From positions 1 through 13,907 of the forward strand of contig DAOVAE010000008.1 of the NCBI GenBank assembly GCA_030671225.1: DNA of 13,907 nt, read 5' to 3'. Below are positions 827 through 12,778 of this stretch, piece by piece (within the stretch, counting starts at the first letter, position 1; the number at the start of each line of letters is the position of its first letter). A program made the position numbers and the translations under genes. The stretch comes from Desulfobacteraceae bacterium (lineage in GTDB: Bacteria; Desulfobacterota; Desulfobacteria; Desulfobacterales; UBA11574). The notes beneath the pieces were generated by a model, which worked only from the letters and a program-made list of their open reading frames with translations, was not told the origin of the DNA and did no database searches.

Positions 827-1666
827 ATGATCATCGACGTACACACCCACATTTTTCCACCCGAAATTTGCCAAAGCAGGGAAAATTTTTTCCCATCGGA
901 ATCTACCTTTAAGCTTTTATACCAGTCACCCAAGGCCAGGCTGGTCGGTGGCCAGGACCTGATCAGTGCCATGGATGCAAACGGGGTGGACCGGGCGGTG
1001 GTATTCGGCTTCCCCTGGACAAATATTGAATTATCTAAAACCCATAATGATTACATCATGGAAACCGTTTTGAAATATCCTGACCGGCTCACTGGTTTGG
1101 GATGTTTCGATCCGGCCAGCCCCGGGGCGACGTCCGAGGCCGAACGGTGTCTTAGCGGGGGGCTTTGCGGAATCGGTGAACTGGCATTTTACCAGTCCGG
1201 TATTGACGATTTGGCCCTGGAGCAGCTGGCCCCTGTCATGGACATGTGCGCGCAGCGCAGCCTGCCGGTTTTAATCCATACCAATGAGCCGGTGGGTCAT
1301 GACTATCACGGCAAGACCCCGATCACCCTGTCTCAAATTTACGGGTTGATCAAACGCTTTACCGACAACAAAATCGTTTTGGCCCACTGGGGCGGCGGCC
1401 TGTTTTTTTATGCCCTGATGAAAAAAGAAGTCAAACAAATCCTGAAAAATGTTTACTTTGATACAGCCGCCTCCCCCTATCTCTACGATCCCGAAGTTTA
1501 TCAAAGTGCCATCCAATTTGTCGGAATTGACAAAATCCTTTTCGGCAGTGATTATCCCCTGCTGGCGCCCAAAAAATATTTCAGTGAAATGGAGCAATCC
1601 GGGCTGACGAAGGATGAAATCGACCCCATTTGCGGATTGAATGCCAAGCGCCTATTCAATTTATAA
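827..1666 (+). CDS. Amidohydrolase family protein (metal-dependent, TIM barrel)
   Basis: The 279-residue product has the pattern of the Amidohydro_2 (COG2159) branch: IDVHTHIF with His6 and His8 at the end of strand 1, PVLIHTNEP with His151, VLAHWGGG with His187, and ILFGSDYP with Asp242. These are the expected ligands and catalytic Asp of a mononuclear metal hydrolase or non-oxidative decarboxylase, a group that includes gamma-resorcylate- and ACMSD-like decarboxylases. Length is normal and there is no signal peptide, so it is cytoplasmic. The ATG at 827 has a weak AGGA site 9 bases upstream and a TATAAT box at 795-800 with no good -35. The gene ends 24 bases before the DUF362 gene, so the two are likely co-transcribed. 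The substrate is unknown. Confidence 0.88.
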   Translation: MIIDVHTHIFPPEICQSRENFFPSESTFKLLYQSPKARLVGGQDLISAMDANGVDRAVVFGFPWTNIELSKTHNDYIMETVLKYPDRLTGLGCFDPASPGATSEAERCLSGGLCGIGELAFYQSGIDDLALEQLAPVMDMCAQRSLPVLIHTNEPVGHDYHGKTPITLSQIYGLIKRFTDNKIVLAHWGGGLFFYALMKKEVKQILKNVYFDTAASPYLYDPEVYQSAIQFVGIDKILFGSDYPLLAPKKYFSEMEQSGLTKDEIDPICGLNAKRLFNL

Positions 1667-1690
1667 TTAAAAAGCTATTTGGAGGAGTCT

Positions 1691-3019
1691 ATGAGTAAAA
1701 ATCGGGTCGCCGTCGTGCGCTATGAAAAACCCCTGGAATCGGTTCGCCAAGCCGTTGAGCTTTGCCGTGGACTGGATCACCTGCCGTCAAAGGCCCGGGT
1801 GTTCATTAAGCCCAACATTGTTTTCTGGACCAAGGCCGTTCCTTTCCCCAAGTGGGGGGTTATCACCACCTCCCGGGTGGTGGAAGACGTGATCATTCTT
1901 TTAAAGGAGCGGGGCATCGATGACATTACCATCGGGGAGGGCACGGTCACCATGAATCCCAAAGACCTGGCCACGCCGGCCCACGCCTTTGAAACCCTCG
2001 GCTACGGAAAATTGAAGCAAAAATACGGCATTAAGTTTATGAATATCTTCGAGCGTCCGTTTAAAAAAGTGGATTTCGGAGACGGGGTCGAACTGCGCTT
2101 CAATGCCGATGCGCTGGATAGCGATTTTGTGGTGGATTTGCCGGTCATGAAAGCCCACAACCAGACGGTTGTCAGCCTGGGAATTAAAAACCTGAAGGGA
2201 CTGATTGACATCCCCTCCCGTAAAAAATGTCACAACATGACCCCTGGCAAAGATCTGAATTTCTGGGTGTCCAAACTGGCGGACAAGATGCCCCCCATGT
2301 TAACCCTTCAGGATGGCATTTACACCAACGAACGGGGTCCGGGGCCGGACGGCAAAATGCATCGCTCGAACCTGCTGGTGGCCTCGGCCGACGTGTTGTC
2401 AGCCGACCTGGTGGGTGCCGGAGTATTAGGGTACAAACCCGAGCAAGTGCCCCACATTATGCATGCCGCCGAAAATCACGGGCGCCCCTGGGATTTTTCA
2501 GATATCGAGGTGGTCGGTGAAAGCATCGACGCGGTTGCGCGCCACCATGCCTATAATGTTGAATACAGCGAAACCGAAGAAGTGATTCTTCCCACCCCGA
2601 TGGTCAAGCAGGGTCTCAAAGGGGTTTTTTACCAGAAGTACGATCTTTCCATGTGCACCTATTGCTCGGGGGTCAACGGCCTGATGATTTCCGCCATTCG
2701 CTTTGCGTGGAAAGGGAAAGCCTGGGATGACGTGGAGGTTCTTACCGGCAAATCCATGCGGCCGACGCCGGGCAAGAAAAAGACGATCCTGATGGGCAAA
2801 TGCATCTACCAGGCCCACAAGGACAATCCCGATATTCAGGAGGCCATCCCCATCAAAGGCTGCCCTCCCAAACCGGCCGATATGCTCAAGGCCCTGCACC
2901 AGGCCGGTATCGAAGCCGATCCCGGGTTGTTTGAAAATATTGATGCCCTGCCCGGATTTTATATGGGACGTTACCAGGATAAACCCGAATACGATGAGGC
3001 GTTTTTTCAGGTGGGATAG
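1691..3019 (+). CDS. DUF362 domain protein with C-terminal cysteines
   Basis: This product has 442 residues. I choose ATG at 1691 because GGAGGAG at 1681-1687 is its ribosome site; the longer frame from TTG at 1679 would translate that site. The N-terminal two thirds follow the DUF362 (COG2006) pattern: VFIKPNIV (37-44), IGEGTV (81-86), DFVVDLPVMKAHNQTVVSLGIKNLKG (145-170) and SADLVGAGVLGY (237-248). The C-terminal part has Cys322-x2-Cys325, Cys371 and Cys391, enough for one [4Fe-4S] cluster, though not in a standard ferredoxin arrangement. DUF362 proteins have no agreed function; redox or cluster roles are usually guessed. It is translated right behind the amidohydrolase. The gene looks GC-richer than the operon that follows. 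The family call is firm and the role unknown. Confidence 0.88.
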   Translation: MSKNRVAVVRYEKPLESVRQAVELCRGLDHLPSKARVFIKPNIVFWTKAVPFPKWGVITTSRVVEDVIILLKERGIDDITIGEGTVTMNPKDLATPAHAFETLGYGKLKQKYGIKFMNIFERPFKKVDFGDGVELRFNADALDSDFVVDLPVMKAHNQTVVSLGIKNLKGLIDIPSRKKCHNMTPGKDLNFWVSKLADKMPPMLTLQDGIYTNERGPGPDGKMHRSNLLVASADVLSADLVGAGVLGYKPEQVPHIMHAAENHGRPWDFSDIEVVGESIDAVARHHAYNVEYSETEEVILPTPMVKQGLKGVFYQKYDLSMCTYCSGVNGLMISAIRFAWKGKAWDDVEVLTGKSMRPTPGKKKTILMGKCIYQAHKDNPDIQEAIPIKGCPPKPADMLKALHQAGIEADPGLFENIDALPGFYMGRYQDKPEYDEAFFQVG

Positions 3020-3130
3020 GGGGCGAGGCTGGTTTCTTGAAATAAGATGGCTCAAGGCGCAGGGCCATGGGCTCATAGATTCCAGAACCTCAGCTATAAG
3101 TAATAACAATTCGGTATACAGTGGATATTT

Positions 3131-4273
3131 TTATATATATTTGTCAAGGCCCAAGTAATAATGCAATTGAAAAAACTCGTTACTGCCCATTTTAAAGAAA
3201 AGCTTTAAATATTGAAATCCTTCATAGGGCAGTGAATAACGTTCCAGCCCTGGCTCGGTGCATACCTGACACTGAGGTGACCTACCTATCTGCCTCCGAA
3301 TTACATTAGCCTTATTTGAGAAAAACAAATCGGAAATATCTTTTTCGGTGATATTGCCTACGCTCTCTTGGATCAGCGGACATAAGAACATCTCGCCGTT
3401 GCTGTGAACAAAGAAATAGTTGAAGCCGCAGGTGCAGGGCTTTTTTATTGTTCCGGTTTCGAAGAATTCAACCAGGGATTCCGCATGAAAACTCCAACGA
3501 AACTGATTGCCTGAAAAAAAATCAATCATTTTTTCGATGTTTTCTGGAGTGAAAGATAGTTCTTCAGCTCGGTCTGGATTCAAATAACGGCCTTCTGCTA
3601 TTATGCATGGAGAAATAATAGTAAAAAGTCCTTTTGAATCTGCATACGCCTGAATTTTGCTCAATTCATTAATATTTAATGGTAGAATTGTTGATTTCAA
3701 CCCGACAATCAGGTTCGGGTATCTATCTCTTAACGGAACGAGTCCTTCGATGGTTTTGCTGACCTTTGACCAGCCATTCTTATAATTTCTGATCCTGTTA
3801 TGGAGTTTTCCCACAGCATCCAATGAGCATACCACAACCAGATAAAGATCCCTTTTTTGTAATGCTTGTAAGATTTCTACCGTTGTTGTTAAAACGCGTT
3901 CCGTTAAAAAACCGTTTGTGGTGACGATAATAGACTTCAAGCGTTTGAGGTTTTTTTGCTTTAATTCGCAGATACCGTCGAAAAGATCGATTAAATCATC
4001 CCGAATAAACGGTTCGCCACCTGTAACATCCAGTTCTCTGATATCGGCAAACAGCTCTGATGAAAGTAGTTTAATCCATTCTGGCATAGAAAGGTTTGAT
4101 ACATCTCCTGGGATTTTCCAAATGTTGCACATTATGCACCGGGCAATGCACTCATGGGTAATTTCTAGACTTACAGACTGAGGTTTTCCAGGTTTTCCGG
4201 TACGTTTCAAGTACTGAAAACGGATTCCGTTGCTGATTAATCGTAAAAACAGTTTCAAGGTATAATTCATCAT
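3131..4273 (-). CDS. Radical SAM protein with SPASM/twitch-like C-terminus
   Basis: The 380-residue enzyme has the radical SAM cluster motif Cys42-x3-Cys46-x2-Cys49 (ECIARCIMCNIW) and the SAM-binding GGEP at 85-88. The C-terminal part has CTC (280-282), Cys298 in GEMFLCPL and CQVC (335-338), which suggests one auxiliary Fe-S cluster as in twitch or SPASM domains. Such enzymes modify peptides, sugars or small molecules by radical chemistry. It is the last gene of the minus-strand operon. The SD AAGGTG overlaps the stop codon of the glycosyltransferase, 8 bases away, so translation is probably coupled. The text does not resemble MftC: residues after the cluster motif are NIWK rather than LSSSG, and the C-terminal cysteine pattern differs. 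The substrate is unknown; the partner glycosyltransferase argues for peptide or cofactor modification. Confidence 0.85.
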   Translation of the reverse strand: MMNYTLKLFLRLISNGIRFQYLKRTGKPGKPQSVSLEITHECIARCIMCNIWKIPGDVSNLSMPEWIKLLSSELFADIRELDVTGGEPFIRDDLIDLFDGICELKQKNLKRLKSIIVTTNGFLTERVLTTTVEILQALQKRDLYLVVVCSLDAVGKLHNRIRNYKNGWSKVSKTIEGLVPLRDRYPNLIVGLKSTILPLNINELSKIQAYADSKGLFTIISPCIIAEGRYLNPDRAEELSFTPENIEKMIDFFSGNQFRWSFHAESLVEFFETGTIKKPCTCGFNYFFVHSNGEMFLCPLIQESVGNITEKDISDLFFSNKANVIRRQIGRSPQCQVCTEPGLERYSLPYEGFQYLKLFFKMGSNEFFQLHYYLGLDKYI

Positions 4274-4281
4274 TGTACACC

Positions 4282-5754
4282 TTAAACCTTTCTTTTATTT
4301 ACAAGTTTAGGATTGACAGAGGTAAAGGAAAAATGACGAAGGCATCCCCACCACACGCCGAGTTGATAAGACAACTGTTCGAGGGAAAAATAAATCAGAA
4401 ATGAGGCTAGGTTCAGGTATGGTCTTTTGATGAAATATTCAACGACTCCCGCTAAAAGATGCATACCCAGAATTGCCACTGAAAGCGTTAATAGAAAGGG
4501 AAGAAATACTATTGACCAAATTAAATAGTAGCGAGACACAAATGAACAACATTGGTAAAGGAACGCCAGATAACTTCTGGCAACAGCCAAGGCAATTTGG
4601 GCCGTGTTGGCTGGAATGCTTTTGAACCTAATCCACTTTGATAAAATATCGAATAAAACAGGGCCGGGGCTTAGCGCAAGTAACGGAAGATAACCAGAAA
4701 TAAATGACAGCGCAACAATACCCAAAAACAGACCTTTCGCGGGCGGGAAAACCAATTGTTTGATTTTTTCGGCATGCAATTGCTGAAGGAGAGGTTCTGA
4801 AGTCCCGTAATCGAAACGTCTTTTGCAAAAAGACATTAATTTATTGCGATGTTTGTGGTACACTTTGCCCACTGGTCGGTATTCGATGTGGAATCCTTCC
4901 TTTTGTAATCGCCAGCAAAAATCCACATCTTCACCAACGACAAGTGCTTCTTCAAATCCTTCCAATTGCAGAAAAACATCCCGCCTCACCAGGAGATTGC
5001 AGGATGGAACGTAAAAGAAAGGATCCTCCTTCGTTGATCGCTTCGGCCAGGCGCCCTTGTATAATGAAGACTTTACTTTCTCGTATTTGTCCAATCCGTT
5101 ATGCTCATAAAAAGAATCTACCATTCCACCTATTGCACCTAAAGAAGAATCCTTGAAAGTCGGAATTAGCTCCAGCAGCCATAGCGGGTCAGCCAGGCAG
5201 TCTGAATCGATGAATGCTAGAAGATCGTTTTTTGAATTTCGGGCAGCCAGATTGCGGCAAAAAGAGGCCTGCTTATTGTTTTTGAGGGAAATAAGATGAA
5301 CCGGAAATTGCGAAACCACATCAGGCGTATTGTCGGTGGATGCGTCGTCGACCACAATTATTTCAAGCTTTTCTTTCGGGTAATTCAATTGAGTCAACGA
5401 AGTTAGGCATGCCTTTATGTTTTGGGATCTGTTTCTGACTGGAATAATGATTGAGACAGGTGGAAAGTTCGGCATCCCGGAAACACCCTCTTGTAGCAGA
5501 AAACCTTTGCGGACCAGTTCGTTGAGAAAAAATTCGATTTTATCCGGCTCTGAATTATCAACCAGAGACAAAATATCATCGAAAGAGATAAATTCATAAA
5601 CGGACAGACCCTTGCAAAGTTCTCGCCAGGAGGGATGCAGAACGATAGATTTTAATGGATAGGAAAGAAGCAGCTGAGATGTCCCATCCTTTTCATGGTA
5701 GCTCACCGTCCTTCTCAATCGGTAGGCTAGTTTTTTTAATTGCTGGTGATGCAT
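4282..5754 (-). CDS. mftF-like: MftF-like family 2 glycosyltransferase with N-terminal PqqD-like domain
   Basis: The product has 490 residues from ATG at 5754; a TTG at 5796 would add 14. Neither start has a clear Shine-Dalgarno site, and ATG best fits the family N-terminus. Residues ~11-91 look like a PqqD-type winged helix (RiPP recognition element). The GT2 domain follows: SIIIPVRNR, IIVVDDAS, DSD metal motif (183-185), GEDVDFCWRL (274-283) and HKHRN. The C-terminus has three hydrophobic segments and a YFSLEQLSYQLGVWWGCLRH stretch. From memory, this order and the C-terminal pattern match the mycofactocin glycosyltransferase MftF, which adds glucose units to mycofactocin. It is probably attached to the inner membrane with the GT domain in the cytoplasm. 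It lies 80 bases after the SDR and is coupled to the radical SAM gene. No peptide precursor is seen nearby. Confidence 0.85.
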   Translation of the reverse strand: MHHQQLKKLAYRLRRTVSYHEKDGTSQLLLSYPLKSIVLHPSWRELCKGLSVYEFISFDDILSLVDNSEPDKIEFFLNELVRKGFLLQEGVSGMPNFPPVSIIIPVRNRSQNIKACLTSLTQLNYPKEKLEIIVVDDASTDNTPDVVSQFPVHLISLKNNKQASFCRNLAARNSKNDLLAFIDSDCLADPLWLLELIPTFKDSSLGAIGGMVDSFYEHNGLDKYEKVKSSLYKGAWPKRSTKEDPFFYVPSCNLLVRRDVFLQLEGFEEALVVGEDVDFCWRLQKEGFHIEYRPVGKVYHKHRNKLMSFCKRRFDYGTSEPLLQQLHAEKIKQLVFPPAKGLFLGIVALSFISGYLPLLALSPGPVLFDILSKWIRFKSIPANTAQIALAVARSYLAFLYQCCSFVSRYYLIWSIVFLPFLLTLSVAILGMHLLAGVVEYFIKRPYLNLASFLIYFSLEQLSYQLGVWWGCLRHFSFTSVNPKLVNKRKV

Positions 5755-5834
5755 TGTACAGATAAATAACCGACAGCCTAATCTGCTTAAAACCAAAATA
5801 TGAGTTAAAATTTGAAATGATGTTGAAAAATAAA

Positions 5835-6656
5835 TTATCCCCGGGCTGTCCAGCCCGCATCAACATTTATAACCGTTCCTGTCAGAAAACGGCTTTCGTC
5901 CGAAGCTAGCCAACGCACAGCATTGGCAATATCCTGAGGTGTGATTCGGCGATCTTTAATCAAATGTCCTTTAGAGAAATGCTCATAGGTGTCTTTCTCC
6001 AGTTCGATTTGAGACGCCAATCCCTCCAGCATGGGAGATTCTACAGTCCCCGGGCATATGGCATTGACATTAATATTATGGTCCGCGACCTCCATGGCCA
6101 GAGCCTTTGTGAGCCCGATGACGCCGTGCTTAGCGGCGGCGTAGTGAATCGAAAGCCCCAACCCTCTTAAACCCGCTACCGAAGAAATATTTACGATTTT
6201 GCCATACTTTCTTTCAACCATATAGGGCACGGCATACTTGCAGCAAAAAAAGGTCCCTTTGAGGCATACATCTAACACCTCATCCCAGGCTTTTTCGGTT
6301 ATTTCCTTTAGAGGAAAAAGAGAAATAATGCCGGCATTGTTGACCAATATGTCCAGTTTGCCAAACTCTTCCGCTACCCGATCAATTGTGTTTTGTACCT
6401 GATTTTCATTGCGCACATCGCAAGTCAGCCCAACGGCCTTGACACCTAAGGCTGATAGCTCTTTCACACTATTATCCAGGTCTGCTTCAGTTGAGAGACA
6501 ATAGGGAACGGTATCAAGATCATGGCAGATATCCACAATAGCAACAGAAGCTCCTCGGGAAGCCAGGTCCCGGGCAATGGCCAAGCCGATATTGCGGGCG
6601 CCGCCGGTAATTAAGGCCGTCTTTCCTTTGAAATATCGTTGGGTTTCCTCCACCAT
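5835..6656 (-). CDS. Mycofactocin-coupled-type SDR oxidoreductase
   Basis: The product is a 273-residue Rossmann-fold dehydrogenase with TGGARNIG (17-24), Asp42 after strand 2 (favouring NAD), NNAG (106-109), Ser159 in NISSVAG, and the YxxxK pair Tyr172/Lys176. Residues 41-71 read VDICHDLDTVPYCLSTEADL and onward. This insertion is the hallmark of SDRs coupled to mycofactocin, which hold NAD tightly and pass electrons to that cofactor rather than exchanging NAD. Two oddities: the third Gly of TGxxxGxG is Asn22, and the helix Asn of the catalytic tetrad is Cys131 (DVCLKG instead of DVNLKG). The start at 6656 follows GGGGAGGA, and a good sigma-70 promoter lies at 6712-6740. It is the first gene of the operon with the MftF-like transferase. 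The alcohol substrate is unknown. Confidence 0.88.
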   Translation of the reverse strand: MVEETQRYFKGKTALITGGARNIGLAIARDLASRGASVAIVDICHDLDTVPYCLSTEADLDNSVKELSALGVKAVGLTCDVRNENQVQNTIDRVAEEFGKLDILVNNAGIISLFPLKEITEKAWDEVLDVCLKGTFFCCKYAVPYMVERKYGKIVNISSVAGLRGLGLSIHYAAAKHGVIGLTKALAMEVADHNINVNAICPGTVESPMLEGLASQIELEKDTYEHFSKGHLIKDRRITPQDIANAVRWLASDESRFLTGTVINVDAGWTARG

Positions 6657-6711
6657 AGTGGTTAATCCTCCCCGGATTCGAGATAAAAGTTACAATGGGA
6701 GCAGCGGAGTA

Positions 6712-6740
6712 AATATTTTCGAAAATGGATTTTTTGTCAA
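6712..6740 (-). promoter_or_regulatory. Sigma-70 promoter for the SDR-glycosyltransferase-radical SAM operon
   Basis: On the minus strand a perfect -35 box TTGACA (6735-6740) is followed by a 17-base spacer and AATATT (6712-6717), which matches four of six -10 positions. It lies about 55 bases before the SDR start codon, so the leader would be about 50 nt. Confidence 0.5.
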
Positions 6741-6841
6741 TATTAAAATATATGGGCCTGCTGAAATCGAGTGGGCGAGATGTGTTAAGACGACACGCTG
6801 CATCGTTGGGGGGGAATGGAGACGTAACTCTGATGTATCCG

Positions 6842-6853
6842 TAAAGCGCTTTA
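6842..6853. promoter_or_regulatory. Palindrome TAAAGCGCTTTA, possible operator
   Basis: A perfect 12-bp palindrome with a central GCGC lies about 100 bases upstream of the SDR promoter, in the 276-base gap after the ABM-like gene. The CG-centred symmetry recalls LacI-type operators, but no such regulator is in the window and short palindromes occur by chance. Confidence 0.2.
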
Positions 6854-6932
6854 AGGTTTTACGAATTAAAAGATCCTTAGCCCAACTCTGAAACAAGGAT
6901 TAAACCACCTTTAAACCGTCTTCTTAAATCAA

Positions 6933-7295
6933 CTAGCGACGGAAACCATACTCCAGTGTGAAAAACTGGGGCTTCAATTCAGCCAAGGGTCCCCGTAGTT
7001 TTGCCAGTTCTTCTTCGGGGCCGTGAACTTCCAAGCGAGTGAGGTCGGAGATTTTCAGGGCGTCTTCCAGCAGAGACCCTACACTTTCAAGATGAATGAG
7101 CGCGCCCTCGGCATCTTCGTAGCCTTCACGGCAATGGGCCTGGTCTCCGTCGAAGCTAAATCCGTAATAGAGGCATTTGGGCTCCTCGTTGGTTTTCTCA
7201 ACAAACTGCTCGCACAATGCCTTAAACGCCTCAAGTTGGCCACTCTGAACTTTGAAATAGGGCACGATCGTACAGCACTTATCCTGGGTTGCCAT
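6933..7295 (-). CDS. Small ABM-like (dimeric alpha/beta barrel) protein
   Basis: The product has 120 residues with an excellent ribosome site, TAAGGAGG, 6 bases before ATG at 7295. The pattern is one ferredoxin-like alpha/beta-barrel unit: a strand (CCTIVPYFKV), a helix (GQLEAFKALCEQFVEKTNEE), a strand pair (LYYGFSFDGDQAHCREGYED) and a helix (AEGALIHLESVGSLLEDALK). This is typical of antibiotic-biosynthesis-monooxygenase-like proteins, which dimerise and act as small oxygenases, isomerases or ligand carriers. The C-terminus adds a helix and strand (EEELAKLRGPLAELKPQFFTLEYGFRR). It follows the DUF4242 gene after 154 bases and precedes the SDR operon by 276. The specific role is unknown; a heme-degrading function cannot be argued from the sequence. 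Confidence 0.7.
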   Translation of the reverse strand: MATQDKCCTIVPYFKVQSGQLEAFKALCEQFVEKTNEEPKCLYYGFSFDGDQAHCREGYEDAEGALIHLESVGSLLEDALKISDLTRLEVHGPEEELAKLRGPLAELKPQFFTLEYGFRR

Positions 7296-7449
7296 GGAAT
7301 CCTCCTTAGTTGGGATTATACCTCATCAAGCTACAAAGAATTGAGCAAGGTTGGTTTCGCTGAAACGGAGCATTCTTGCCACATCACTTAAAAAATCTAT
7401 AACATGGCGATTATATCAAATTCAACCAATTAAATATCTTTGCGAACGA

Positions 7450-7725
7450 TTAGGCCTCCGCAGTTGTTGGATCAATCATCGCTCGAACTTCGGAGATACG
7501 ATCTGCCGGAAAGCCGCCCTTTTGAGCGTGTTCGCGGATCGCCTCCTCGTCCGGAGCAATATAGACGCAGTAGATCTTGTCATCAGTGACGAAGCTTTCA
7601 ACCCATTGAATCTGGGGTCCCATTTCTTGAAGCACTCCGCAGGATTTCTGTGAAATACCTTGAAATTCTTCCGCGGACAGTTTTCCCGCTCCGGAGATTT
7701 CTCGCTCGATTACATATTTCGGCAT
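7450..7725 (-). CDS. DUF4242 family protein (SCO4226-like)
   Basis: The product has 91 residues, starting MPKYVIEREISGAGKLSAEE and containing SCGVLQEMGPQIQWVESFVTDDKIYCVYIAPDEEAIREHAQKGGFPADRISEVRAMIDPTTAE. This is the usual full-length DUF4242 pattern: a small alpha/beta-barrel homodimer for which nickel binding has been reported in the Streptomyces member SCO4226. AAAGGAG lies 9 bases before ATG at 7725. It is the first gene of a minus-strand pair with the ABM-like gene. A sigma-54 promoter candidate lies 184 bases upstream of the start (7909-7924). The family call is confident; the role is unknown, possibly metal or aldehyde chemistry next to the dehydrogenases. Confidence 0.85.
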   Translation of the reverse strand: MPKYVIEREISGAGKLSAEEFQGISQKSCGVLQEMGPQIQWVESFVTDDKIYCVYIAPDEEAIREHAQKGGFPADRISEVRAMIDPTTAEA

Positions 7726-7908
7726 GGGTGTTCTCCTTTCTTGATATATTTGAATTGATTATGAACGCAGGTTTGTTTCCGCTGAACGGGAAATTTCCGC
7801 GCTATCGAATAACACCTTGGCATTCATGTTAATCCACCATGCGCAAGATGAGCATATATAAATACAACATCTGCTCAGTTGAATCCATGAATCCAAATCC
7901 GGGCCTTT

Positions 7909-7924
7909 CGCAAAAATCACGCCA
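7909..7924 (-). promoter_or_regulatory. Sigma-54 promoter candidate upstream of DUF4242
   Basis: Read on the minus strand the site is TGGCGTGATTTTTGCG. TGGC, the G at position 7 and TTGC match the -24/-12 consensus, with GG and GC exactly 10 bases apart; the mismatches are GT for AC and the final G. The start would be near 7898, giving a leader of about 170 nt before DUF4242. The sigma-54 activator gene encoded in the divergent operon makes this site more credible. It is weaker than the site at 581-596. Confidence 0.4.
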
Positions 7925-8085
7925 TCCAAATATAATGGGAAACAATGATCTGAATTTCAATTTCCTGCAGATAATTTTGTTATAATTCCAAATAATTGAA
8001 CTCTTTAATGATGGAGGGTAGGCTTCCACCGTATTTTGTTGATGGTGCACATTTTTTTTCTCTTGCTGCAACGTTATCCCTTTTG

Positions 8086-8102
8086 ACCACACTCGACCCC
8101 AA
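8086..8102. repeat. GACCCC-type intergenic repeat, copy C
   Basis: ACCACACTCGACCCCAA resembles the copies at 13193-13209 and 13324-13340. With copy A the likeness extends upstream over a CCCTTTT stretch. The three copies share the core ACTYGACCCCA. It may be a remnant of a dispersed G-rich repeat or transposon end. Confidence 0.45.
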
Positions 8103-8104
8103 TA

Positions 8105-8116
8105 GGTATTTATACC
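8105..8116. promoter_or_regulatory. Inverted repeat GGTAT-TT-ATACC, possible activator site
   Basis: Five-base arms are separated by TT. The repeat is about 190 bases upstream of the sigma-54 candidate at 7909-7924, within the usual range for an enhancer bound by an NtrC-type activator. No second copy was found nearby, so the assignment is weak. Confidence 0.2.
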
Positions 8117-8391
8117 AATATAATCAATATATTATGAATCAGATAGCTGATATGGTTGGGACTTTTCTTCACTTATGAGACTAACCAAGCTGGAAAACGA
8201 TGTTGTTGGCTCAGTCTTTTTAACCAATTCTCAAATAAAACGACACAACCAAGAAATTAGGCGGTGGGATTTGCACGGCGAAGTAGGTTTACTTTTTTTA
8301 AATATACTGTTAAAAATTAGTTCGCTTCGCTCACATAGCGCTAAAAATCGATATTATTTTCCCGCGGCGGCGGGGTACCATTTTCGAGACG

Positions 8392-8420: not shown

Positions 8421-9581
8421 ATGATTATGCCCGAGGACTCCCTGCTAAAATTTGAAATTCCAGAAGTCATTTATGGCTTAGGCGCGCTCTCCCAAATTGG
8501 TAAGTGTTGCAGACGTTTGGGCGGAGAGCGGATTTTATTGGTTACGGATCCTGGCCTTATCGCTGCGGGTTGGGTGGACGAGAGCATAAAATATTTAGCA
8601 CAAGAGGATCTTCAGTATGTTATTTACGACAATGTGGTGACAAATCCCCGTGATTTTCAGGTGGAACAAGGCCTAGAGCTTTATCGTCAAAAAAATTGTG
8701 ATGTTATTGCAGCGGTCGGCGGAGGCAGTCCTATTGATACGGCCAAGGGGATTGGGATTTTAACCTCTAATCATGGAAGGATTCATGAATACGAGGGGGC
8801 TAATCTGGTCACCCAACCAATACCGCCTTTGGTATGCGCTCCTACAACTGCCGGAACAGGAGCGGATGTCAGTCAATTTGCAGTGATTACCAACAAACGC
8901 GCCAACCTGAAAATGGCCATCCTCAGCAGGGCCATTACGCCCGACATTACCCTGGCTGATCCACTTCTCCTGAAAACCAAATCCCCTGAACTAATTGCTA
9001 CCACAGGTATGGATACCCTTTCCCATGCTATCGAAGCTTATGTGTCCTCTCTTTCTTGGCCCTTGACGGATCCACATGCCATTCATGCCATTGAACTAGT
9101 CGGTAAACATCTTGTCAATGCAGCCCAAACAAAAGATATGGATGCGTTGGAGGGTATGTCAATTGCCTGTTTGGAAGCCGGCATGGCCTTTTCAAATGCC
9201 ATTTTAGGAGCCGTACATGCGCTGGCCCATCCTTTAGGCGGCCTGTATGATATTCACCATGGGCTTGCTAACTCTTTACTGTTGCCGGTGGTGGTTCGAC
9301 AAAACATGGAACATGCGCTTCCTAAGTTTGCCGGAATCGCACGGGCATTGGGTGCTGAGACACGCGGTAAATCTATTGAAGCTGTCGCCCAGCAGGTTCC
9401 GGGGCAACTTCAGGATTTAATTGCAAAATTGGGACTGCCCACCAGGCTTTCTCAAGTGGGTGTCGATGAAGCGGATATTCCTCACCTGGCTCAGATGGCG
9501 GAAGAAGATATCTGTATGCTGACGAATCCTCACTGCTATATGAAAGCCGAAATAGAATCGATGTATCATGAAGTATTGTAG
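8421..9581 (+). CDS. Iron-containing (group III) alcohol dehydrogenase
   Basis: The product has 386 residues from ATG 8421 (384 from ATG 8427), the usual family length. It has the NAD-binding GGGSPIDTAKG (100-110), PTTAGTGADVS (141-151), and metal ligands Asp198 and His202 (GMDTLSHAIEAY), His266 (AVHALAHPLGG) and His280 (HHGLAN), matching the Fe-binding set of FucO-type enzymes. It oxidises or forms a short-chain alcohol with NAD(P); the substrate cannot be read. The open frame extends upstream to 8175, but that part has no family similarity and no ribosome site. Neither real start has a Shine-Dalgarno site; TATAAT at 8414-8419 would place transcription start almost on the codon. The histidine kinase gene follows after 9 bases. 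Some members of this family are known to use mycofactocin (methanol:NDMA oxidoreductases). Confidence 0.93.
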   Translation: MIMPEDSLLKFEIPEVIYGLGALSQIGKCCRRLGGERILLVTDPGLIAAGWVDESIKYLAQEDLQYVIYDNVVTNPRDFQVEQGLELYRQKNCDVIAAVGGGSPIDTAKGIGILTSNHGRIHEYEGANLVTQPIPPLVCAPTTAGTGADVSQFAVITNKRANLKMAILSRAITPDITLADPLLLKTKSPELIATTGMDTLSHAIEAYVSSLSWPLTDPHAIHAIELVGKHLVNAAQTKDMDALEGMSIACLEAGMAFSNAILGAVHALAHPLGGLYDIHHGLANSLLLPVVVRQNMEHALPKFAGIARALGAETRGKSIEAVAQQVPGQLQDLIAKLGLPTRLSQVGVDEADIPHLAQMAEEDICMLTNPHCYMKAEIESMYHEVL

Positions 9582-9590
9582 GTTTACTCT

Positions 9591-10793
9591 ATGAACCGCA
9601 ATGAAAAAATACCCATGCACGATTTTAAGGGCATCGGTTTTTCAAAAATAGGCCATTTTAAGGAAGTGCGAGCCAAAATTAAAGAACTCGAAAAACTGAA
9701 TGTCAAGCTTGCGCGACGAGGCAATCGGCTGGAAGCTATTTTCAATAGTATGAGCGATGGCGTGACGATTTTGGATCGAAACCTAAATATCGTTTTTGCC
9801 AATCATGTCCAAAAAAACATGTTTCCGGCTATTTCATTGAGTGGACAAAAATGTTTCACTACTTATTACAGAAAAAATAAAATATGCAAAAATTGTCCTG
9901 CGCTGCAAACCATTGAGACACAGGAAACTCGACGGGGTGAAACTTTGATTAAGGCTGGTAACTTTGCCGGCCGTTACTTGGAGTGGACCACTTCCCCCAT
10001 CGAGGATCCTCGGGGTAATGTTGAAGAAATTATCCTCTTGATGCGGGATATTACGGAACGTAAAGAATATGAATTCAAGCTCATGCAGGCGGATCGGATG
10101 ACAGCCATCGGTTTTTTGGCGGCGGGAATCGCCCATGAAATTAACAATCCGCTCGCCTCTATTGCGGGCTTTTCGGAAGGATTGCTGAAGCGGCTTAGCA
10201 AAATGGAGAAATTACGTGACCCCAAATACCTTTCTACCTTTAAGGAATATCTGAATATCATCAACAATGAAGCTTACCGGTGTAAAGATATCATCCAAAA
10301 TTTACAAGATTTCAGCCGAAGCTCAGAGGATGATTATGAAGTCATTCGGATTGACCAAATCATCGATGCCACCGCATCTCTTTTCCGGCAACATGCCAAA
10401 GATAACCACATCAGAATTATTACCAAAAACGATCTGGCCACCGGCTTCAATCAAGTTCTCGGCATTGAATCCCAGCTTAAGCATGTATTCCTGAATTTAT
10501 TTAATAATGCCTTTAAAGCAATGGTAAATGGAGGCGAATTAACTGTATTGGCCAGAAACGAAGGCAATTCGATTGAAATTCAGATTGCAGATACCAGAGA
10601 TGGTACTCCCGGTGAATCGGTTCTGGATCTATATGATCCTTCCTGTTTGAGCGAGCCAATTGGAAAAAGATCCAGTCTGGACCTATCCATTTGTCACAAT
10701 ATCATTCAACATCATAAGGGTGAATTTCAAATAATGAACAACAAAGGTCGGGGAATTACTTTCATCTTGCGTTTGGCGGTTAACTTGCCCTGA
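9591..10793 (+). CDS. PAS-domain histidine kinase with degenerate ATP-binding domain
   Basis: This product has 400 residues and no membrane segments, so it is cytoplasmic. Order: coiled-coil-like N-terminus (25-45), PAS domain (~46-155) with GQKCF...ICKNCP, i.e. Cys88-x10-Cys99-x2-Cys102, then a HisKA helix with His182 in AAGIAHEINNPLAS, then an HATPase_c-like domain (~285-398). The N-box is kept (LNLFNNAFKAM, 301-311). The G1 box reads DTRDGTP (334-340) where DTGxGIP is expected. The F-box is YDPSCLSE. The G2 motif GTGLGLS is RSSLDLS (360-366), so all three glycines are lost. ATP binding is therefore doubtful; it may act as a phosphatase, phosphotransfer scaffold or be phosphorylated by a partner. 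The cysteines may bind a cluster or sense redox. It lies 9 bases after the dehydrogenase and 35 before the regulator gene. Confidence 0.88.
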   Translation: MNRNEKIPMHDFKGIGFSKIGHFKEVRAKIKELEKLNVKLARRGNRLEAIFNSMSDGVTILDRNLNIVFANHVQKNMFPAISLSGQKCFTTYYRKNKICKNCPALQTIETQETRRGETLIKAGNFAGRYLEWTTSPIEDPRGNVEEIILLMRDITERKEYEFKLMQADRMTAIGFLAAGIAHEINNPLASIAGFSEGLLKRLSKMEKLRDPKYLSTFKEYLNIINNEAYRCKDIIQNLQDFSRSSEDDYEVIRIDQIIDATASLFRQHAKDNHIRIITKNDLATGFNQVLGIESQLKHVFLNLFNNAFKAMVNGGELTVLARNEGNSIEIQIADTRDGTPGESVLDLYDPSCLSEPIGKRSSLDLSICHNIIQHHKGEFQIMNNKGRGITFILRLAVNLP

Positions 10794-10828: not shown

Positions 10829-12166
10829 ATGAGCCAAAGCAGCATATTGGCGATTGACGACGAACAAAACATCAGACACCTGATCAAAAGTGAGTTTTCC
10901 ATCGAAGGCTATGAGGTTGCTACCGCCGGAAGCGGTGAGGAAGGATTAAGGCTCTTTGATACTCGCGGGTTTGATGTGGTGCTGCTTGACATTAACTTGC
11001 CGAAATTAAATGGCATTGAAACGCTCCGAAGATTAAAACAAAAGTCTTCCACAACTGAAGTAATCATGATCACGGGTTATGGAGACATTAAATCGGCGGT
11101 GCAGTGTATAAAACTTGGGGCCCGAGATTATGTGACCAAGCCATTCAAACTTGATGAAATCTTCGCACTGGTCAAACAGGTCATAAAAGATAACCGCAGG
11201 CTTTCTGACCGGCAAGAGAAAGCAACGGAGTCGGAACGTGAAGTCAGCGGTGGATCCATCCGGTGTCCCAGTAAGGCCATGCAACCGGTCTATAAGTTGG
11301 TTAAAAAAGTGGCGTCCACCGATAAAACCGTTTTGATTCAGGGTGAAACCGGTACGGGTAAGGATGTCCTGGCACAGCATATTCACCTCCAAAGTAAACG
11401 CAAAAACGGTCCTTTTGTTACCCTGGATTGTGGCCTTCTTTCGCAAAATCTGGCCGAGAGCGAACTTTACGGACACCGGAAAGGGGCTTTCTCCGGGGCG
11501 TCGGAGAGCAAATTGGGGTTGGTGGAAAAAAGCCATAAAGGGACCCTTTTCCTGGATGAGATCGGAAACATTGCCCTGGAACTGCAAAAGAAATTCCTCC
11601 GTTTTCTGGAAACCAGACAATTTCGCAGGATCGGAGAAACCAAAGAGTCACAGGTGGACACCCGTATTATTCTGGCCACAAATAGGGATTTGCAGGAGGC
11701 TCTGAAGGAAGGCGCCTTGAGAGAAGACCTGTTTTACCGGATGGATGTTATCCAAATTTCTATTCCTCCTTTAAGGGATCGTTCTGAAGATATTGAATGC
11801 TTGGTTCCGCACTTTTTGAAGATGGACGCCGCCGAGGGTGAGCCGAAAAAAATTTCAGCTGAAGCTTTTAGAATGCTAAATACGCATGCCTGGCCGGGGA
11901 ATATAAGGGAGCTGAAATCCGTCATTAATAAAGGGACGATTTTAGCGGAATCGGATACCATCACAGCGGATGATTTACCAAACCACTTGTCTTTCAATAA
12001 AAGGGAGCTGCCCCGCCGGTTAAAAACCCTGCAAGACGTTGAAAGAGATCATATCCTGGAGGTTTTGGAAGAAACAGGTGGGAATCAGAGTAAAGCTTCC
12101 CAGATTCTGGGAATCAACCGCAAGACCCTTTATAAAAAGATTCATAAATACAAGATCTTTTCGTAA
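10829..12166 (+). CDS. NtrC-family sigma-54-dependent response regulator
   Basis: The product has 445 residues in three parts. The receiver domain (~5-120) has Asp10/Asp11, phospho-acceptor Asp54 (VVLLDINLP), Thr82 and Lys104. The AAA+ domain (~140-375) has Walker A GETGTGKD (172-179), the sigma-54 contact loop GAFSGA (219-224), Walker B GTLFLDEIG (238-246) and WPGNIREL (355-362). The C-terminal Fis-type helix-turn-helix (~405-441) contains GGNQSKASQILGINRKTLYKKI. It activates sigma-54 promoters by ATP hydrolysis and binds upstream enhancers. The contact loop has Ser where Thr is usual. GGGAG precedes ATG at 10829 by 8 bases. It is the partner of the kinase just upstream, and the operon also contains the alcohol dehydrogenase, so control of alcohol or aldehyde metabolism is likely. 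Sites at 581-596 and 7909-7924 are possible targets. Confidence 0.95.
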   Translation: MSQSSILAIDDEQNIRHLIKSEFSIEGYEVATAGSGEEGLRLFDTRGFDVVLLDINLPKLNGIETLRRLKQKSSTTEVIMITGYGDIKSAVQCIKLGARDYVTKPFKLDEIFALVKQVIKDNRRLSDRQEKATESEREVSGGSIRCPSKAMQPVYKLVKKVASTDKTVLIQGETGTGKDVLAQHIHLQSKRKNGPFVTLDCGLLSQNLAESELYGHRKGAFSGASESKLGLVEKSHKGTLFLDEIGNIALELQKKFLRFLETRQFRRIGETKESQVDTRIILATNRDLQEALKEGALREDLFYRMDVIQISIPPLRDRSEDIECLVPHFLKMDAAEGEPKKISAEAFRMLNTHAWPGNIRELKSVINKGTILAESDTITADDLPNHLSFNKRELPRRLKTLQDVERDHILEVLEETGGNQSKASQILGINRKTLYKKIHKYKIFS

Positions 12167-12247: not shown

Positions 12248-12778
12248 CTAAAACGGCAGTGTGCCGGCAGTCAGCAGCCAGAAGGCGGGGATATACAGAC
12301 CCAAGGGCACCCACACGATAAGAGACCAGGCCAAAAGCTTGGCCGGACACTTGCCGTAACCGAAGCCCCATACCTCGATTGTTAGAATGGTGTACCCCAA
12401 GCAAGCAAATGCAAAGTAGTTGCTTTTGGCGACCAACTGCTCACCGTTTTCCAGGACCGGCCCACCTGTGAAGAAAAGAATCATATAGATAGCGGATACT
12501 ACAGCCGTCACTAAACTGACGTTGCCAACGGATCTCAGATCTTCTATCCCGCTTACCAGGGCGTAGCATGTGCTGAGGTAAAGGAGGCCGTGTACAAAGA
12601 GCAGGCCGGCGGTGAAGCCATCCTTGAAAACGGCTGCCTGCAGAATCGCGCCTATGACCACAACGGCGCCTACCAAGCCGCAGATGGCACCGGTAGTCTT
12701 GGCCTCCCCTTTACCTATTAAAAAAAGTCCCAAAGGTACCCACATAATACTAATTGCTATAAGAACTGGTAATGTCAT
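12248..12778 (-). CDS. AmiS/UreI-like small membrane transporter
   Basis: The product has 176 residues with about six hydrophobic helices and short loops, e.g. LPVLIAISIMWVPLGLFLIG, AICGLVGAVVVIGAILQAAVF, VSLVTAVVSAIYMILFFTGG and LLAWSLIVWVPLGLYIPAFWLL. The C-terminal half (SNYFAFACLGYTILTIEVWGFGYGK ... LGLYIPAFWLL) resembles the AmiS/UreI family of urea and short-amide channels, and the length fits. The charged loops are few, so it is an integral inner-membrane protein. ATG at 12778 follows a run of seven G and TAGGA. It is a single gene, converging on the regulator and preceded by a leader with an 8-bp inverted repeat (12818-12849). The family assignment comes from overall pattern and is moderate; a generic small membrane protein is possible. 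Confidence 0.55.
   Translation of the reverse strand: MTLPVLIAISIMWVPLGLFLIGKGEAKTTGAICGLVGAVVVIGAILQAAVFKDGFTAGLLFVHGLLYLSTCYALVSGIEDLRSVGNVSLVTAVVSAIYMILFFTGGPVLENGEQLVAKSNYFAFACLGYTILTIEVWGFGYGKCPAKLLAWSLIVWVPLGLYIPAFWLLTAGTLPF

Follow-up and report, generated by a model that had tools for sequence, protein, structure and literature searches.

Three genes on a Desulfobacteraceae contig are most likely the displaced tail of a mycofactocin system

To analyze a possible mycofactocin operon in a Desulfobacteraceae bacterium, we examined a stretch of 13,907 nucleotides (the window; contig DAOVAE010000008.1 of assembly GCA_030671225.1), in which genes for a short-chain dehydrogenase/reductase (SDR), the mycofactocin glycosyltransferase MftF and a radical S-adenosylmethionine (radical SAM) protein lie at 3131-6656. 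These three genes are most likely the displaced tail of a mycofactocin system. We put at about 0.8 the probability that they are the distal part of the mycofactocin system of anaerobe-rich groups, the radical SAM enzyme being accessory to it, and that mftA, mftB and mftC stand at another place in the genome, one that the incomplete assembly does not include. A check of the open reading frames (ORFs) confirmed all three on the minus strand, at the positions claimed in a preliminary description of the sequence:

3131..4273, minus strand: twitch-type radical SAM enzyme, 380 amino acids, not MftC (Pfam Radical_SAM and SPASM, conserved cysteines, AlphaFold2)
4282..5754, minus strand: MftF, mycofactocin glycosyltransferase, 490 amino acids, with an RRE-like N-terminus, a GT2 domain and long C-terminal helices (TIGR03965, AlphaFold2)
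5464..5754, minus strand: RRE/PqqD-like N-terminal domain of MftF, residues 1-97 (hhalign to MftB)
5835..6656, minus strand: SDR whose best hits are mycofactocin-coupled families, under their cut-offs (NF040490, TIGR03971)

The SDR gene stops about 80 bases ahead of the mftF ATG, and 8 bases separate the mftF stop from the ATG of the radical SAM gene. The MftF protein scored 350.9 bits against TIGR03965, whose curated cut-off is 280, and 351 bits when read from the ATG at 5754; a genome-wide search of the host with the same model returned it at 350.8 bits. Alignment with 29 relatives was used to place its start at the ATG at 5754; translation probably does not begin as far upstream as the TTG at 5796 given in the ORF list. 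The positions of the glycosyltransferase that are invariant in the alignment were all kept in the window protein.

The distribution of the three markers was determined in a draw of 297 genomes from the phylum, with at most 5 or 6 candidates scored per genome and membership of the radical SAM family set by alignment A1 at E<=1e-60. The radical SAM family was found in 9 genomes, MftF over its cut-off in 15 and MftC over its cut-off in 13, or in 8, 14 and 13 of 296 when the host was left out. All eight radical SAM genomes were among the 14 MftF genomes (hypergeometric 2e-12, a figure that is only a guide, the genomes being related), and seven of them were also MftC genomes. MftC was present in 12 of the 14 non-host MftF genomes, and each of the 15 MftC loci of the draw had an MftA end. 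Besides the host (68.71% complete), MftF occurred without MftC in G214 (92%) and G326 (87%), both fragmented drafts, and MftC occurred without MftF in G159 (76%). The radical SAM gene was about 20 kb from mftF in G071 and on another contig in G331, indicating that the link between the two is not one of adjacency alone.

The organization of mycofactocin loci in relatives was then mapped. A scan of genome contigs for MftF gave 80 loci, of which the best 46 were mapped (L005-L050); L051-L084 matched only part of the GT2 domain, at E 3e-24 or weaker, and were not mapped. TIGR03965, applied to 28 of the 46 mapped loci, matched in all of them (E<=1e-60). MftC was over its cut-off in 12 of the 19 genomes carrying the nearest MftF (48-62% identical), and in 11 of the 12 there was beside it a canonical MftA with DGICGVY or DGICGIY as its C-terminus, the twelfth MftC gene lying at a contig end. 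Locus L189, from a genome listed as 100% complete (G319), carried on one strand and within 14 kb mftA, mftB, mftC, two old yellow enzyme (OYE) genes, the electron transfer flavoprotein (ETF) gene etfA, genes for a cytochrome and an Fe-S protein, etfB, mftF, a second radical SAM gene and a radical SAM gene of the window type. The same plan, with one OYE gene and different ETF partners, was found in L008/L122; in L190 it was visible from mftC onward, and in L009/L124 the radical SAM gene was reduced to a remnant. Elsewhere the system was split, SDR-mftA-mftB-mftC with LarE, LarB and LarC genes standing apart from OYE-OYE-etfA-cytochrome-FeS-etfB-mftF-radical SAM, the two halves being on different contigs (L119, L017) or on one (L120, L015). 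The window matches the MftF end of both arrangements. It has no etfB before the SDR gene and is therefore rearranged too; in L009 an SDR gene, whose product is 77% identical to that of the window, likewise stands directly before mftF. The preliminary description had offered a satellite of a mycofactocin locus elsewhere as one explanation, and this neighbourhood comparison, in which the core mft genes were found with both MftF and the window-type radical SAM gene, supports it well.

A radical SAM gene of the window type was present in 21 of the 46 fetched MftF loci, on the same strand as mftF in 20. It lay at most 336 bases from mftF in 15 of the 21, and a second radical SAM gene stood between them in 5. 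Adjacency to mftF was also seen in Chloroflexi/Dehalococcoidia loci (36-39% identical) and in a spirochaete (51%). In the genome of the Olavius Delta 1 symbiont, a stretch of 33 residues, 70% identical (L009:11585-11683), was all that was seen of the radical SAM gene behind mftF, and no match to the family was found there at E<=1e-40. The L009 remnant indicates that this gene can be lost.

The radical SAM protein carries CX3CX2C at residues 42/46/49 and four further cysteines, 280, 298, 335 and 338, conserved in 20/20, 18/18, 18/18 and 18/18 non-gap rows of a 21-row alignment. By their sequence pattern these four would be the ligands of one auxiliary cluster, as in the twitch domain of BtrN. 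The AlphaFold2 model (pLDDT 92.2; the L085 row was left out of the folding alignment) had SkfB, BlsE and SuiB as its nearest folds, with BtrN ranking lower. The Pfam SPASM profile matched the protein at 31.3 bits. The seven-cysteine SPASM motif is described as CX9-15GX4C-gap-CX2CX5CX3C-gap-C (PMC6231123); the window protein contains no CX5CX3C, and only the four cysteines above are conserved throughout. Among the best 25 of 48 NCBIfam families matched at E<=0.01 it came near no cut-off, the top one being NF033640 (70.6 bits of 170). As a candidate MftC the protein was rejected (TIGR03962, 18.3 bits against a cut-off of 265). No report of an accessory radical SAM enzyme with mycofactocin was found among titles and the beginnings of abstracts, which covered few subscription papers. 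What seems to be new here, judging by sequence, is an unnamed radical SAM family that goes with mycofactocin genes in groups rich in anaerobes.

Genes of a second radical SAM family, likewise unnamed, accompany those of the window type (L007:3853-4941, L189:13070-14149, L190:9147-10217, L182:2589-3668 and others), also where the fetched stretch has no mftF (L182, L183, L184). Its members were 25-29% identical to MftC, and the six tested scored 104-127 bits against TIGR03962. The TIGR03962 search of the host did not bring up this family.

The preliminary description had also given MftF a PqqD-like N-terminus, and this holds in a comparison of sequence profiles. In the AlphaFold2 model (pLDDT 91.8) the N-terminal domain has the predicted order of four strands, three helices and one strand, which we take to fit the PqqD/RRE winged helix. 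A profile of 25 MftF N-terminal segments (residues 1-97) was aligned by hhalign with one of 15 MftB proteins, giving a probability of 92.9%, E 3.7e-7 and a score of 40.2 over 83 columns, against at most 17.5 for the MftB profile with 21 control slices from other alignments. The Pfam PqqD models gave no match at E<=10 for seven MftF N-terminal segments, HMMER filters discarding most weak matches. In sequence searches of the PDB the N-terminus had no match below E 0.04, its best two being to the winged helix of MecI (0.042) and to TigE, a radical SAM protein (0.21), and MftB had no notable match. A Foldseek search with the whole MftF model does not probe the N-terminus, the best 50 matches listed being all glycosyltransferases. 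The presence of this fused RRE suggests that MftF and MftC dock on one and the same leader peptide.

The most likely mechanism would be the following. MftC, held to the peptide by MftB, would cyclise the C-terminal Val-Tyr (or Ile-Tyr) of MftA, and MftF, via its own MftB-like RRE, would attach sugars. As nicotinoprotein users, the SDR and the iron alcohol dehydrogenase encoded nearby would pass electrons to the cofactor, which would be reoxidised by the OYE and ETF proteins, the membrane-type Fe-S protein and the seven-haem cytochrome encoded beside MftF in relatives. The radical SAM protein would be a mycofactocin-associated accessory maturase; since its predicted twitch domain has four cysteines, it may carry out a two-electron oxidation of an MftF-bound intermediate, either the peptide core or a sugar.

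Mycofactocin is understood from aerobic actinobacteria. MftD is reported to turn 3-amino-5-[(p-hydroxyphenyl)methyl]-4,4-dimethyl-2-pyrrolidinone (AHDP) into the redox-active ketoamide (PMC11778925), a step described as aerobic (PMC8406134), and in M. smegmatis the loss of MftF is reported to stop formation of premycofactocin as well (PMC7491314). MftD (TIGR03966) was over its cut-off in none of the 46 genomes with MftF homologues, most of which are from anaerobe-rich groups, lifestyle being judged by record titles; the T. roseum control scored 715 bits. Weaker relatives (E<=1e-30; best 174.4 bits of 470.85) occurred in 8 of the 46, and E. coli has such relatives too, so that some of these genomes may have a divergent MftD. 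MftE was over its cut-off of 172 in none of 47 genomes; its absence is weakly founded, since there were 17 weaker matches, the best at 170.4 (G005), and a Haloterrigena record annotated as MftE reached only 176.7.

Radical SAM oxidation beside MftF would fit the gap left by MftD, and it is plausible that mycofactocin is made without oxygen by a route that includes an uncharacterised radical enzyme. A definite version of it can be offered only tentatively, and we consider it rather unlikely: anaerobes would make mycofactocin with no need of the oxygen-dependent MftD; the twitch radical SAM enzyme, by itself or together with the second one, would oxidise an MftF-bound intermediate by oxidative deamination of AHDP or by sugar oxidation, giving a second route or a modified mycofactocin. 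A role of the radical SAM protein as universal substitute for MftD was unsupported, since 20 of the 46 genomes without a model-grade MftD also lacked its family at E<=1e-40, among them G022 (which holds L026), a complete genome by its record title. In those 20 another enzyme, perhaps OYE, must serve, or else the radical SAM family perhaps decorates the product. The protein is a candidate for making the redox-active group without oxygen, and in the phylum draw it occurred only in MftF genomes.

The operons of relatives also offer a respiratory route for reoxidation of the cofactor, through ETF, the membrane-type Fe-S protein and the seven-haem cytochrome. Between the mft etfA and etfB (L009:5400-8122, L189:7896-10558) stood genes for a membrane-type CCG/4Fe-4S protein and for a c-type cytochrome in which CXXCH occurs seven times; through this pair mycofactocin electrons could leave anaerobically. 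An eLife paper reports that about 25% of genomes with MftC have no MftG, a matter that it leaves open.

Variation was also seen at the precursor. MftA ended in CGIY and not CGVY in 9 of 26 non-reference genomes (L028, L029, L034, L040, L088, L090, L091, L092, L096), a count that leaves out L093 and L117-L127, whose genomes were already counted; L173 and L180, from the phylum draw, likewise ended in CGIY. From a core of Ile-Tyr one would expect, in place of the dimethyl lactam, its ethyl-methyl analogue, and so a slightly different cofactor. Genes for LarE, LarB and LarC (nickel-pincer cofactor synthesis; L040:11532-15767) stood near mftABC in the split loci L117 and L119-L121 and in L028, L029 and L040, where mftF follows mftC. 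Some of the Lar-bearing loci also had an aldehyde:ferredoxin-oxidoreductase-like gene near mftABC, and LarA-like genes were found in L018 and, by clustering, L038.

Several results weigh against a displaced tail of a mycofactocin system. In the host assembly MftC was not found, TIGR03962 giving three matches: the window protein and two candidates, on contigs C83 and C85, that were dismissed as AhbC and MoaA. The best MftB score was 12.1 bits (TIGR03967, cut-off 33), the mycofactocin OYE model TIGR03997 gave weak partial matches only, and an MftA-type C-terminus was found neither in the window, as the preliminary description had said, nor in the assembly by exact degenerate pattern. The genome-wide search proposed in that description thus returned MftF and not MftA, MftB or MftC. 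The assembly comprises 1,060,151 bases in 153 contigs, and because it is only 68.71% complete the absence of genes from it says little. In the more complete draft G214, too, MftF and the radical SAM gene were found and MftC was not. The SDR had two mycofactocin-coupled families as its best models and fell 4-6 bits under both cut-offs (NF040490, 380.6 against 385; TIGR03971, 294.1 against 300); among the best 25 of 232 families the only cut-off it passed was that of the generic NF009466 'FabG' (223.4 against 222). TIGR03965 and TIGR03971 had been named beforehand as the decisive models, and of the two proteins MftF passed clearly and the SDR nearly. Finally, the radical SAM family was found at E<=1e-40 in 26 of the 46 mapped genomes and not in the other 20, and was not found in 6 of the 14 genomes of that draw from the phylum which have MftF; it is therefore not needed in all such systems.

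The missing core genes could also mean that MftF and the radical SAM protein form a self-contained variant pathway acting on a different, unrecognised peptide without MftA or MftC, and G214 and G326 likewise have MftF without MftC. We regard this as improbable, since all but those two of the non-host MftF genomes in the draw carry MftC, both exceptions are fragmented drafts, and in one relative mftABC share an operon with this very pair of mftF and radical SAM genes. A different peptide as the unseen substrate implied by the preliminary description found no support here, no systematic search for another precursor having been made. Its variant pathway stands in a weaker form: the extra twitch radical SAM enzyme, the lack of model-grade MftD and the Ile-Tyr end of some MftA suggest that the pathway is modified, more than that the cofactor is of a new class.

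The same absences would be explained if mycofactocin synthesis had been lost and the SDR, MftF and radical SAM genes were leftovers. Decay does occur, as the 33 residues in L009 illustrate, and partial loss is reported in Herbiconiux, with mftD, mftF and possibly mftA but no mftB, mftC or mftE (PMC11778925). A degenerate remnant is hardly expected here, because the three ORFs are intact and full length, the conserved cysteines and invariant glycosyltransferase positions are kept, and the host assembly is so incomplete. Independently of both alternatives, the radical SAM protein might modify something unrelated to mycofactocin and stand beside mftF by chance: sequence alone gives no substrate, and radical SAM genes occur near glycosyltransferases in other contexts. 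Chance placement is very improbable given that every other carrier in the 296 genomes has MftF and that the adjacency recurs in the Chloroflexi/Dehalococcoidia and spirochaete loci. A displaced tail of a mycofactocin system is thus the preferred explanation.

Other genes of the window lie on both sides of these three. Those upstream of the SDR gene were assigned as follows:

6933..7295, minus strand: small ABM-like protein encoded ahead of the SDR gene, perhaps in the same operon (PF03992, E 0.0016, under the gathering score)
7450..7725, minus strand: SCO4226-like small protein (PF14026, 104.5 bits)
8424..9581, plus strand: ErcA-like iron-containing alcohol dehydrogenase (NF041833, 472.8 bits, cut-off 550; start inferred)
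9591-10793, plus strand: PAS histidine kinase (Pfam HisKA, HATPase_c, PAS)
10829-12166, plus strand: sigma-54-activating response regulator (Pfam Response_reg, Sigma54_activat)

The ABM-like protein has an 82% identical copy in L183, 2.2 kb from the radical SAM gene, and SCO4226-like copies (70-83% identical) were found no more than about 10 kb from mft genes in L015, L016, L017, L021, L023 and L040. The ORF of the ErcA-like dehydrogenase opens at 8175 and homology starts near 8442; homologues of 66-73% identity have mft genes at most about 10 kb away in L015-L017, L019, L023, L029, L118 and L120. A mycofactocin-predictive peak, TSNPKDYEVH, is reported at one spot of such dehydrogenases (Haft 2011, PMC3023750), where mft-linked enzymes (L033, L046, L024) have TSNPKDxE and the window enzyme has VVTNPRDFQV. 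The order dehydrogenase-kinase-regulator is repeated in L019, L029 and L118, and the kinase and response regulator probably regulate the region. A promoter and terminator scan of 2950-8250 gave no more signals than shuffled sequences. The window also carries an amidohydrolase (PF04909) and a DUF362 protein at 827-3019 (plus strand) and, at 12248-12778 (minus strand), an unassigned, probable membrane protein of 176 residues with homologues in L029 (43%) and L184 (63% identical), the latter less than 1 kb from the radical SAM gene.

Compared with known systems, the N-terminus of the window MftF resembles MftB and PqqD-type RREs in matching the MftB profile, and differs in being fused to a glycosyltransferase and missed by the Pfam models; RRE-glycosyltransferase fusions as such were already noted by RRE-Finder (PMC7470986). 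The radical SAM protein shares with MftC the superfamily, a C-terminal auxiliary-cluster domain and, in some relatives, the operon, but in it the seven-cysteine SPASM motif is missing its second half; its four predicted cluster cysteines liken it to BtrN, a twitch radical SAM dehydrogenase (PDB 4m7t). From the mycofactocin cluster mftA-F (PMC3023750, PMC7491314) the system differs in that the host assembly yielded no mftABC, MftF is followed by an additional twitch radical SAM enzyme, MftD and MftE were over their cut-offs in none of the genomes searched, and many loci of relatives carry OYE, ETF and cytochrome genes, the OYE and ETF types being already modelled by NCBIfam. It agrees with that cluster in an MftF over the cut-off, an SDR of the coupled type by best hit and relatives with canonical mftA, mftB and mftC, and in its known part the window is an intact, mostly ordinary piece of a mycofactocin system.

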